Source: Chrysochromulina tobinii (lineage: Eukaryota; Haptophyta; Prymnesiales; Chrysochromulinaceae). Taken from it: 23,852 nucleotides of DNA. How positions within the stretch are numbered: the first letter of the stretch is position 1; each line of letters opens with the position of its first letter. The notes beneath the pieces are model-generated. The model worked only from the letters and a program-made list of their open reading frames with translations. It searched no databases and was not told where the DNA came from. Below are positions 12,665-15,432 of the stretch, piece by piece. The position numbers and the translations under genes are program-made. The DNA lies in assembly GCA_001275005.1 (NCBI GenBank), contig JWZX01002945.1:1-23852 (forward strand). Direction: 5' to 3'.

Positions 12665-15432
12665 ATGTGCGGCATCGTGGCCTACCTCGGCAACGCGCAG
12701 GCTAAAGAGATCCTGCTCAGCGGCCTCGCACGCTTGGAGTACCGCGGGTACGACTCGGCAGGCCTCGCGGTCATGCAAGAGACGGCGGGCGCGGGAGCGG
12801 TCGTGGAGCCAAGTGGTGAGCAGAGCAACGAGGCAAAACGGCGGCGAACCTCGTCCGGCCATCGCATCTCGGTCGTCAAGCGCGCGGGCAAGGTGTCCGA
12901 CCAGTCGGCGGCGTGCTCTACGGACAACTCGGCGGGTACGCTCGGGATTGCGCACACGCGCTGGGCCACGCACGGTCCGCCCAACGACAAGAACGCGCAC
13001 CCGCACATCTCGCACGACGGCCTGCTGGCCGTCGTGCACAACGGCATCGTCGAGAACTTCACGTCGCTTCGCGCCGAGCTGCAGCGCAAAGGTTACGTGA
13101 TGCGCAGCGACACAGACACGGAGCTGATTGCACACCTCATCACCGACGTGCGTAAGGCCAAGTGGATGCCACTCGAAGAGGCCGTACGCCAGGCGCTCTC
13201 GCAGGTCACGGGCGCCTTCGGCCTCGCCGTCATCGCCGCCGATGAGCCCGATCTGCTCATTGGAGCTCGGAGGGGATCTCCGCTCATTCTGGGCATCGGC
13301 GCCGACGAGTAGGCGGCTGATTGGAACTTAACTGATTGGATCTGATTGGCACTATAGGATCTGATTGGATCTCTCTTTGGACCTCAATTTGATCTCAATT
13401 TGATCTCTATTTGATCTCTATTTGATCTCTATTTGGACCTTTGCGTGACTCTGAGTGCATCTGTGATGGCCTCTGATTGGCATGGATGGCTCTCTGAGTG
13501 CCTCCCTCGTCAGGTACATCCTCGCATCGGATGCGTCCGCGGTCGTGGAGCGTACGAAGCAGGTCTCGTACCTGAACGACGGCGAGATGGTGGTGATCCA
13601 TCGAACGGAAGGTTACCAAATTAAGACGCTCGAAAACGTGAAGCTCATTCGCGAGGTGCAGCTGCTCGAGCTTTCGCTACAGGAGATCCAAAAGGGCTCG
13701 TAAGCAGGCTGATTGCCCCGGAGTGCCCCGGAGTGCCCTTCGATGGCGTCAAAGTGCGTCTGGGGGCACCTGAGTGCGTCTGAGTGCATCCCTCATCAGG
13801 TACAAGCACTTCATGCTCAAGGAGATCATGGAGCAACCTGAGGTGCGTCGGATGGCGTCGGATGGCGTCTAGTTGCGTCGGATGGCGTCTGATTGCGTCG
13901 GATTGCGTCTAATTGCGTCTAATTGCGTCGGATTGCGTTCGTGGCGTTGGATGCGTCGGATGGCGTCTGAATGTGTCGGATTGCATCTGAGGTCTCCGAT
14001 TGCCTCCCTAATCAGGTGCTCCAGAACTGCATGCGTGGCCGCCTGCTGCCCGACGAAGGCGTCATCAAGATGGCGGGCATCGAGCAGCACCTGCCGCGCA
14101 TCCTCGCCGCCCGGCGGCTCATCGTGGTTGCATGCGGCACTTCGTGGCACGCGGGGCTTGTGGGCGAGTATCTGATCGAAACCCTCGCTCGCGTGCCTGT
14201 CGAGGTGGAGTACGCGTCCGAGTTCCGGTAACGTCTGATGGCCACTGATGGCCACTGAGTGCTTCTGAATGCCTCTCCGATGACCCTCTGATGACCCTCC
14301 GATTGCCACTGATGACCATCTGAGTACCACATCAGGTACCGGCGCCCCATATTAGGCAAGGATGACGTGTTCATCGCGATCTCGCAGAGCGGCGAAACGG
14401 CCGACACACTCGCCGCGCTCCAGCTCGCCAAGCAGAAAGGTTGCTTATGCTTGGGCGTGGTGAACACGGTCGGTTCGTCCATTAGTCGCGAGACCGACGG
14501 CGGCATCTACTTGCATGCAGGGCCCGAGATCGGCGTCGCGTCAACCAAGGCCTTCACGGCGCAGGTGCGCAGAGTGCCACACGGAGTGCCTTGGGACTCC
14601 GCGGAGTGTGCCACTAATTGCCTCTGAATGCGCAGGTGCTCACGCTCACGATGCTCGCGCTCAAGCTCGCGGGAGAACGCGGCGAGCTCTCACCCGACGA
14701 ACTGAAGGCGAAGCTGCATGCATGCAGCCGCCTGCCCAATTTGGTACGGCGCGTGCTCGAGACCCAATCGCAGGTCGTGCAGATGGCGCGCACGTACCGG
14801 TATGCGTCCAACTTTCTGTACCTCGGTCGTGGCTTCTCGTTCCCGGTGGCCCTCGAGGGTGCTCTCAAGCTCAAAGAGATCTCGTGCGTCAGATTGCCTG
14901 CTGAGTGCGGCTGAGTGCGGCTGCGTGCGGGTGATCGTCGCTAGTCGCCGCTGATGGTCGCTCATGGTCGCTCATGGCAGTCTGAGTGCCTCCCCCATCA
15001 GGTACATTCATGCCGAGGGCTACCCCGCCGCAGAGATGAAGCACGGTCCGATAGCGCTCATCGACGCCTTCATGCCCGTGGTCGTGATTGCGCCGAGATC
15101 AGACACGAATTACATGAAGCTCCTCTCCAACATCGAAGAGGTGCTCGCGCGCAACGGCTCGGTGATCGCGATCACCGACGAGGGCAACTGCGACCTGGAC
15201 GACAAGTGCGACTTTGTGATCAAGATGCCCGAGGTCGAGGAGTTCCTCGTGCCTTTGCTGGCAGGTGATTGCCTCTGAGTGCCTCTGAGTGCCTCTGAGT
15301 GTGTCTGAGGAGTTCTTCGTGCCGTTGCTCGCAGTCATACCGCTGCAGCTCCTCGCGTACCATATTGCGGACATGCGCCGGTGTAACGTCGACCAGCCAC
15401 GCAACCTCGCAAAGTCAGTCACCGTCGAGTGA
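12665..15432 (+). CDS. GFAT: Glutamine:fructose-6-phosphate aminotransferase (isomerizing), 640 aa
   Basis: Exons: 12665-13308, 13514-13699, 13800-13842, 14016-14227, 14336-14564, 14636-14883, 15002-15264, 15335-15432; they join to an unbroken frame. The enzyme converts fructose-6-phosphate and glutamine to glucosamine-6-phosphate, the first step towards UDP-GlcNAc, in the cytosol. The protein starts MCGIVAYLG, so Cys2 is the glutaminase nucleophile after Met removal. [18 protein letters not shown] and SDTDTE follow. Two sugar-isomerase domains carry [27 protein letters not shown] and [20 protein letters not shown]. The C-terminus is AKSVTVE, as in the family. Residues about 40-85 form a low-complexity insert with KRRR where eukaryotic enzymes also have one. 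Most introns are phase 2 (1, 2, 4, 6) or 0 (3, 5); intron 7 is phase 1. Start and splice sites are fixed by family motifs. Confidence 0.96.
13309..13513 (+). repeat. GFAT intron 1, tandem-repeat intron
   Basis: 205 bp, phase 2, donor GA/GTAGGC, acceptor GTCAG/GTAC. It contains CTGATTGGA repeats, then an 11-bp array (TTTGATCTCTA and variants), and ends GTGCCTCCCTCGTCAG. Confidence 0.9.
13700..13799 (+). repeat. GFAT intron 2, tandem-repeat intron
   Basis: 100 bp, phase 2, donor CTC/GTAAGC, acceptor CATCAG/GTAC. Made of GGAGTGCCCC and TGAGTGCGTC-type decamers; ends GTGCATCCCTCATCAG. Confidence 0.9.
13843..14015 (+). repeat. GFAT intron 3, near-pure decamer array
   Basis: 173 bp, phase 0, donor GAG/GTGCGT, acceptor AATCAG/GTGC. 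About 15 copies of a 10-bp unit (GGATGGCGTC, TGATTGCGTC, TAATTGCGTC); ends TTGCCTCCCTAATCAG. Confidence 0.95.
14228..14335 (+). repeat. GFAT intron 4, tandem-repeat intron
   Basis: 108 bp, phase 2, donor CCG/GTAACG, acceptor CATCAG/GTACCG. Repeats of ACTGATGGCC and TCTGATGACCC type. Confidence 0.9.
14565..14635 (+). repeat. GFAT intron 5, short repeat intron
   Basis: 71 bp, phase 0, donor CAG/GTGCGC, acceptor GCGCAG/GTGCTC. Contains GGAGTGCC repeats and ends with ACTAATTGCC and TCTGAATGCGCAG. Confidence 0.9.
14884..15001 (+). repeat. GFAT intron 6, tandem-repeat intron
   Basis: 118 bp, phase 2, donor TC/GTGCGT, acceptor CATCAG/GTACAT. GGCTGAGTGC and CGCTCATGGT repeats; ends GTGCCTCCCCCATCAG. 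Confidence 0.9.
15237..15334 (+). repeat. GFAT intron 7 with duplicated exon end
   Basis: The intron is 15265-15334 (70 bp, phase 1). Its last 28 bp (15307-15334) match the last 28 bp of exon 7 (15237-15264) at 25 positions, and the 70-bp offset equals the intron length. Three TGAGTGCCTC decamers lie between the copies. Confidence 0.92.

Follow-up and report, generated by a model that had tools for sequence, protein, structure and literature searches.

The gene for glutamine-fructose-6-phosphate aminotransferase (GFAT) on contig JWZX01002945.1 of the haptophyte Chrysochromulina tobinii, which we analyzed within a stretch of 23,852 nucleotides (the window), is interrupted by seven introns, six of which are clearly built from tandem repeats of about 10 bp. 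These introns are probably members of a genome-wide introner family, in which a cassette was inserted together with a long target duplication of variable length. Two observations carry this reading: Cassettes of CTGATTGC-type decamers, often ending in TGATTGCNTCCCTCATCAG, occupy introns that were predicted or checked by homology, with sense orientation and in register with the 3′ splice site, and about half of the repeat introns examined repeat 16-40 nt of the adjoining exon. A preliminary description of the window had suggested that a unit supplying splicing signals many times over would make an intron robust; the copies of exon edges point to an insertion mechanism rather than to robustness alone.

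The Decamer Repeat Across the Genome

The analyzed assembly comprises 53.15 Mb in 2253 contigs. Within it, a 20-mer from GFAT intron 3 has 554 matches with at most two mismatches, whereas the reversed control has none, and pairs of CTGATKRC at a step of 10 bp number 10,772 (5262 + 5510) as against 3 for the reversed pattern. Other steps yield 89 pairs at 9 bp (control 1), 1,642 at 11 bp (control 2) and 1,027 at 12 bp (control 2). The common 3′ end, a 19-base module TGATTGCNTCCCTCATCAG, is present in 1,170 copies (593 + 577; reversed control 0); it was found at 6 places among prokaryotic contigs totalling 257 Gb and at 0 places in viral contigs, where the triple unit occurs at 2. The decamer repeat is genome-wide, not confined to GFAT and present in thousands of copies. 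Chance density at this base composition, a doubt raised in the preliminary description, is ruled out by the reversed-pattern controls of 0-3 and by the six places in prokaryotic DNA. On the first 20 stretches (200 kb, contigs C6 to C215; individual loci carry L numbers) we counted 56 ten-bp pairs in 22 arrays on 5 of the 20 stretches, with 40.5 pairs expected at the genome mean; scaling from these stretches gives about 4,000 arrays genome-wide, a crude figure for arrays so clustered (41 of the 56 pairs lie in L020).

The word CTGATGA resembles C and D box motifs; the idea of a C/D-box small nucleolar RNA (snoRNA) is unconfirmed, comparison with Rfam having given no match at the gathering score in the window, the stretch that the scan covered. 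An origin from telomere repeats was ruled out, the arrays at the ends of contigs C103, C992 and C1485 being TTAGGG. Together with these telomeres, 58 matches to chlorophyll-binding proteins suggest that the assembly is that of a photosynthetic alga, and the one rRNA locus read was of the bacterial or plastid type.

Location, Orientation and Register of the Repeat

Locations were counted in gene models that a home-made gene finder predicted for the 20 stretches and the window; these models comprise 58 introns (the 7 GFAT introns placed by homology), and the strict motifs counted were CTGATTGC, CTGATGRC and CTGAGTGC. The gene finder was used in a fixed, stricter version, as a self-trained iteration of the splice sites over-predicted introns (333, 688, then 795) and was dropped. 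In 19.9 kb of introns, 125 strict motifs are sense and 10 antisense, compared with 23 sense and 12 antisense (35 in total) in 156 kb of exons and with 5 and 2 on the two strands (7 in total) in 31.6 kb of intergenic DNA. L020 dominates the full count; with this locus omitted, the intron motifs number 60 sense and 1 antisense. A strict motif is present in 22 of the 58 introns, so that many of them belong to other kinds. At least one of the 58 (window 12130-12700) is wrong, since it covers the GFAT start, and it holds no motif; among 16 motif hits in GFAT introns, the gene finder mislabelled one as exon and one as intergenic.

An enlarged set comprises 121 introns, 58 repeat-bearing and 63 other, of which 31 and 16 come from five regions chosen for decamer hits; introns above 700 nt and those with a weak flanking coding score are excluded. 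In the repeat introns of this set, the adenine of CTRA lies 16 (16 cases), 26 (13), 36 (9), 46 (9) and 56 nt (8) from the intron end, and these 10-nt steps indicate that the arrays tend to keep register with the acceptor. CTRA 10-40 nt from the end is found in 39 of the 58 repeat introns versus 11 of the 63 others, the counts for the antisense strand being 8 and 6. All three frames contain stop codons in 55/58 repeat introns in sense and 29/58 in antisense, the corresponding counts for the other introns being 34/63 and 27/63, and the median first stop in repeat introns falls at 21 nt in sense versus 87.5 nt in antisense. Moreover, the downstream exon begins with GTR after 33 of the 58 repeat introns versus 9 of the 63 others (p 1e-6), and genome-wide 715 of the 1170 3′ modules are followed by GTR.

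The decamer-based intron family proposed in the preliminary description is supported by these counts: The repeat is genome-wide, concentrated in introns and in sense orientation, and its CTRA cores are in phase with the 3′ splice site. The branch-point role suggested for the units (CTRAY) is a candidate function; many GFAT units read CTGAG instead. A 5′ splice site furnished by the unit, as also suggested, is not supported in general: A minority of introns start with GTGATTGC and do seem to take it from the unit, but many have a GTR donor copied from the first bases of the downstream exon.

Copies of the Adjoining Exon

The copies come in two arrangements. In type A, the first bases of the downstream exon, mostly from GTR onward, recur at the start of the intron or in a block inside it (e.g., L032 4964-5111 and L033 2334-2425). 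In type B, the last bases of the upstream exon recur at the intron end; examples are GFAT intron 7 and L033 4639-4708, both of which start with GTGATTGC. Copies at the extreme intron ends (score at least 8) were found in 17 of the 121 introns versus 0.04 expected from shuffled pairing, and beyond the splice site they match over 0-4 bases only. When copies anywhere in the intron are considered (score at least 13), 28 of the 58 repeat introns carry one (1.4% among 285 shuffled pairs), as do 8 of the 63 non-repeat introns (0 among 309 shuffled pairs). The 28 copies are 16-40 nt long (median 25.5) at a median identity of 96%, 10 being identical; 23 abut a splice site, an abutment that is partly built in for internal copies because the exon queries ended at the predicted splice site.

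An assay free of gene prediction gave a similar picture: At 20 module sites, hand-picked from 100 listed and one per contig, a copy of the downstream edge (score at least 12) was seen at 10 versus a null of 7.4%, or at 9 without L054, which is a repeat-only match; in L036, L040 and L041 the copy is part of nested blocks. Additionally, three copy-bearing introns lie at gapless junctions in protein alignments, namely GFAT intron 7, L033 6144-6332 in a gene for UDP-glucose:glycoprotein glucosyltransferase (UGGT) and L031 7418-7659 in a GH3 beta-glucosidase gene. For one gene in L031, assignment to a P2X receptor was rejected, with 0 PDB matches and 0 Pfam families. At L029 6055-6334 and L020 7625-7843, blocks of exon edge plus array stand head to tail inside one intron, which suggests that a single site underwent several insertions or that blocks were duplicated there.

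A Second Cassette Family

A second cassette, RAGTGCTCACCACGRCGCC...CCCCACAG, is without decamers and is present in 284 copies genome-wide versus 0 for the control. We read it at eight sites, five picked from the list and three in L032, among them L032 4601-4668, L055, L056 and L057; the intron at L032 4601-4668 lies within a stretch matching Pfam PF00534. An exon copy of 15-40 nt is present at six of the eight sites, with scores of 15-34 versus null maxima of 9-10, and none was seen at L058 and L059. Five of the six copies begin at GTR (one judged by eye) and are followed by about 39-50 nt of cassette and then by the exon. Since exon copies thus also stand beside decamer-free cassettes, the layout is not a by-product of decamer slippage.

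The GFAT Gene and Its Introns

The GFAT gene occupies 12665-15432 on the forward strand in eight exons, whose spliced open reading frame encodes 640 amino acids; this protein matches GFAT chains in the PDB and aligns to one of them, 4amv (E 5.9e-153), with 0 gaps at all seven junctions. All seven introns are GT-AG and measure 70 to 205 nt, and the span 13309-15334 of the preliminary description is exact, running from the first base of intron 1 to the last base of intron 7. Intron 1 (13309-13513) contains CTGATTGG units at 13332-13372 and an 11-bp TTTGATCTCTA array at 13364-13435 and ends in the 3′ module CTGAGTGCCTCCCTCGTCAG (13494-13513); intron 2 (13700-13799) has decamers at 13714-13738 and 13753-13787 and the module CTGAGTGCATCCCTCATCAG (13780-13799). 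After both, the next exon begins with GTAC, as it does after intron 4 (14228-14335; units at 14235-14258 and 14275-14330) and after intron 6 (14884-15001; GCTGAGTGCG units at 14900-14934, CGCTCATGGT units at 14949-14977 and module CTGAGTGCCTCCCCCATCAG at 14982-15001). Intron 3 (13843-14015) consists of an almost pure decamer array (13844-13990) and the module CCGATTGCCTCCCTAATCAG (13996-14015), after which the exon begins with GTGC, the intron's own first four bases. Intron 5 (14565-14635) is the least periodic and has the direct repeat GCGCAGGTGC on both flanks (14559-14568 and 14630-14639). In intron 7 (15265-15334), GTGATTGCC and TCTGAGTGCC units (TRF array 15266-15309) precede a copy of the upstream exon: The comparison of exon edges identified the end of exon 7 (15237-15264) as the original and 15307-15334 as its imperfect 28-nt copy, which forms the 3′ end of the intron and provides its CAG.

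Periodicity was measured as lag-10 self-identity against dinucleotide shuffles (1000 per intron, 300 per exon). It is clear in introns 1, 2, 3, 4, 6 and 7 (p = 0.001; the best lag of intron 1 is 11), weak in intron 5 (p = 0.019 at lag 10, p = 0.18 across lags 5-15) and significant in none of the eight exons (lowest p 0.28). When each intron was compared with the other six in a leave-one-out manner (up to one mismatch, 200 shuffles), 9-mer sharing exceeded the maximum of the shuffles in six of the seven; intron 5 has 19 shared 9-mers versus a shuffle mean of 4.6 and a maximum of 20, and the antisense strand of the introns shares 0-6. Consequently, the statement that all seven introns are built from the repeat stands for six, intron 5 being only a likely case with its weak period and its 9-mers below the shuffle maximum. 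That the exons show nothing similar is borne out for periodicity in all eight, but two of the eight, exons 1 and 7, share 9-mers above the shuffle mean (58 vs 39.6 and 34 vs 19.4), exon 7 being the exon partly copied into intron 7.

A CTRA-type adenine lies 16 nt from the end in introns 1, 2, 3 (there as CCGA) and 6 and is absent from this position in introns 4, 5 and 7. In introns 1-4 and 6 the possible target copy amounts to 2-4 matching bases, which may be what is left of old insertions or may be no evidence at all.

Proposed Origin of the Introns

We propose that a cassette would enter a coding exon in an event that duplicates its target, in the manner of staggered-break repair or target-primed insertion. 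The cassette would typically provide the branch adenine, the pyrimidine stretch and the AG. With the target duplicated during insertion, a single splice site within the cassette would suffice, its partner coming from the duplicated exon: Type A, which covers most cases, would obtain the donor GTR in this way, and type B, with a cassette beginning with GTGATTGC, the acceptor AG, as in GFAT intron 7. Splicing would then take out the cassette together with one target copy and thereby restore the reading frame; selection for exact restoration of the frame would leave types A and B, as observed. The sense bias would come from purging of antisense or unspliceable copies. Later, the array would lengthen or shorten by 10-bp steps, and blocks of exon edge and cassette would be copied in tandem. 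Multiple units might act as spare branch sites and the all-frame TGA might flag unspliced RNA, both of which would be secondary and as yet unproved benefits. Purging accounts only in part for the low intergenic density, a gap that leaves room for an RNA-linked route.

Several points weigh against this proposal. Splicing was deduced from homology and reading frame, the evidence is drawn from a single genome assembly, and 455 of the 1170 modules lack GTR after them. The gene finder misplaced junctions (window 12130-12700, L031 8015-8064 with extra residues, and part of the UGGT model that stays unaligned); gene models outside the homology-checked genes are predicted, and the intron sample is partly biased. 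One of the 28 copies is a repeat-only match (L015 1407-1485), leaving 27, and among the eight copies in non-repeat introns two are repeat-only (L031 8015 and L031 9480) and one lies in a tandemly repeated stretch (L033 8930); all four rows are kept in the counts of 28/58 and 8/63. The length range of the copies is bounded by the method, as score 13 hides copies below 13 nt and the upper limit is 40. In 7 of the 23 abutting copies, identity extends 8-44 nt past the splice site, which speaks for block duplications and not for clean target copies. At loci not chosen for the repeat, i.e., the 20 stretches and the window, copies occur in 7 of 27 repeat introns (one of them the repeat-only L015 1407-1485) and in 3 of 47 others. 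Finally, the 2-4 matching bases of GFAT introns 1-4 and 6 are obtainable from the splice-site consensus alone.

Growth of a minisatellite would account for the arrays without any insertion: Slippage and gene conversion would have amplified a CTGAT-bearing unit within old introns while splicing was kept. The variable copy number of the arrays and the predominance of 10-bp steps agree with this, as do unrelated units in other predicted introns (window 7445-7553, L018 5028-5111), but we consider it improbable, since it leaves unexplained the 19-base 3′ end at 1170 places, the exon copies in 28 of 58 introns and the excess of GTR downstream. The direct copies of exon edges at intron ends and inside introns, together with the nested blocks of exon edge and array (L029 6055, L020 7625), would also be expected from tandem genomic duplication, along the lines of the staggered-break model for Daphnia, in which an exon stretch with AG/GT is doubled to give an intron and the decamers are later filler. 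In the cases read, however, the duplicate gives the donor or the acceptor and the partner site lies in sequence common to hundreds of sites; tandem duplication alone produces no shared cassette and is thus an unlikely origin. Such a duplication is said to have generated an intron in the potato RdRp gene (PMC4974935), a single case apparently without a shared cassette; an exon duplication accompanies the new intron there as here, whereas the shared cassette is found here.

Retention of the array for a function, whatever its origin, is conceivable though somewhat doubtful. Redundant branch sites would fit the phase of CTRA, and all-frame TGA stops exposing unspliced RNA would fit the stops in all frames in 55/58 repeat introns in sense versus 29/58 in antisense; yet a period of 12, which brings no rotation of frame, still occurs 1027 times, and a function accounts for retention but not for the origin or the exon copies. 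The sense bias and the low intergenic density could alternatively stem from plain reverse splicing, in which an intron, once excised, would re-enter mRNA or DNA by reverse splicing and be copied back, its spread being sense-only and within transcribed genes; a similar argument is made for Micromonas introners in the relevant passages of PMC3879977. This process does not duplicate its target, and the frequency of long copies makes it highly improbable. Copying of intron RNA by target-primed reverse transcription would agree with the sense bias as well as with the long copies.

Building on the proposed insertion with target duplication, we put forward one more specific scenario, which taken jointly is rather speculative. 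The genome would run an active intron-making system based on mobile half introns: Target-primed reverse transcription or templated break repair would write the 3′ part of an excised intron RNA (branch units and AG) into exons; the target duplication of 16-40 nt would become the 5′ half of the new intron, a GTR site in the exon would permit an intron in one step, and at least two sequence-distinct cassette families would share this route.

Bulk intron gain is a long-open question, and what appears to be a shared inserted piece is available here at more than 1000 sites. With exon copies that can still be read (10 of 28 identical), the steps of gain could be rebuilt at individual sites, and comparing strains should reveal insertions that are still under way.

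Comparison with Known Systems

Introners are known from Micromonas, Aureococcus, Symbiodinium and a Chrysochromulina sp. metagenome-assembled genome (MAG), according to sections of PMC9860276 and PMC3879977; in some families, as stated in the former, one splice site is carried and the other is co-opted from a target duplication of 3-9 bp. As in the systems covered by those sections, many related introns occur in one genome, and the sense orientation is that of Micromonas (PMC9860276, PMC3879977). Sequence common to many introns beyond the splice consensus is present here in 1170 modules and 10,772 pairs, and the repeat lies within genes in sense orientation (125:10, with gapless junctions in three genes). 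The target-site duplication of introners resembling miniature inverted-repeat transposable elements (MITEs) is likewise found (28/58 vs 1.4%, with 1/28 repeat-only; 6/8 in the second family). In contrast to the duplications of 3-9 bp given in the parts of PMC9860276 concerned, those above the detection threshold here span 16-40 nt; a fixed short duplication of the MITE-like kind was not found, the median being 25.5, and introns without a detected copy may hold a short one. Long and variable copies, unlike the introner duplications described in these parts of the literature, narrow the candidate enzymes. Here a decamer tandem array forms the body of the intron, whereas the word "tandem" is absent from the main text of PMC9860276 and PMC3879977.

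Within the 3′ module, CTGAT is the reverse complement of the terminal ATCAG, and inverted units occur in L020. A MITE with constant terminal inverted repeats seems less likely: No constant pair was found when sought in L020, and none was seen in the other cassettes read.

For Daphnia pulex, passages of PMC4202315 describe neointrons attributed to staggered double-strand breaks, with exon repeats of 4-12 bp, internal repeats in 55 of 90, read as repeated breaks, and shared motifs of 4-17 bp whose frequency correlates with AT content. In both systems, the end of the neighbouring exon is directly repeated at the far end of the intron (here at the extreme ends in 17 of 121), whereas the decamer array and the common 3′ module were not found in these passages on Daphnia (PMC4202315). 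As we read that model, inserts would be of mixed, unrelated origin; here decamer and 3′ module are common genome-wide. The Amoebophrya introners have, in the portions of PMC7789003 that deal with them, largely non-canonical splice sites, inverted repeats of 8-20 nt and direct repeats of 3-5 nt. They resemble the present introns as repeated introns of a protist with direct repeats at the exon/intron borders and differ from their GT-AG sites and long direct repeats (PMC7789003).

No description of decamer-array introns was recognised in the literature searched, most subscription journals and preprints being outside its scope. The combination of decamer array, phase, common 3′ module and copies of 16-40 nt was likewise not recognised there, in sources represented partly by passages, and we file these introns among the introners.

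Other Repeats in the Window and Elsewhere

Repeats of other kinds were also encountered. The predicted intron of another gene at window 7445-7553 is built from a 13-bp unit CACCTTGATTGCG, of a different period and with a similar CTTGATTGC core; elsewhere in the window (5144-5252), a 39-bp unit is repeated 2.7 times and contains the inverted pair GAGCTGTGAG...CTCACAGCTG. A predicted intron at L018 5028-5111 consists of telomere-like CCCTAA repeats, several with CTAAC, a word resembling a branch site, and TTAGGG arrays lie well inside contigs (C855, C978, C881 and others), which would be either interstitial telomere repeats or the product of misassembly. At L011 1498-1578 and 1793-1843, arrays are formed by an 11-bp unit with CTCGACAGG, in which an acceptor-like CAG/G is embedded, and the predicted intron at L025 3088-3242 ends in a 19-bp array whose unit is similar to its own 3′ splice site (CACACCTGTGCAG). 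Another short-unit kind is represented by TTGACTTGAC-like arrays in predicted introns at L017 8222-8527 and L032 6358-6672.

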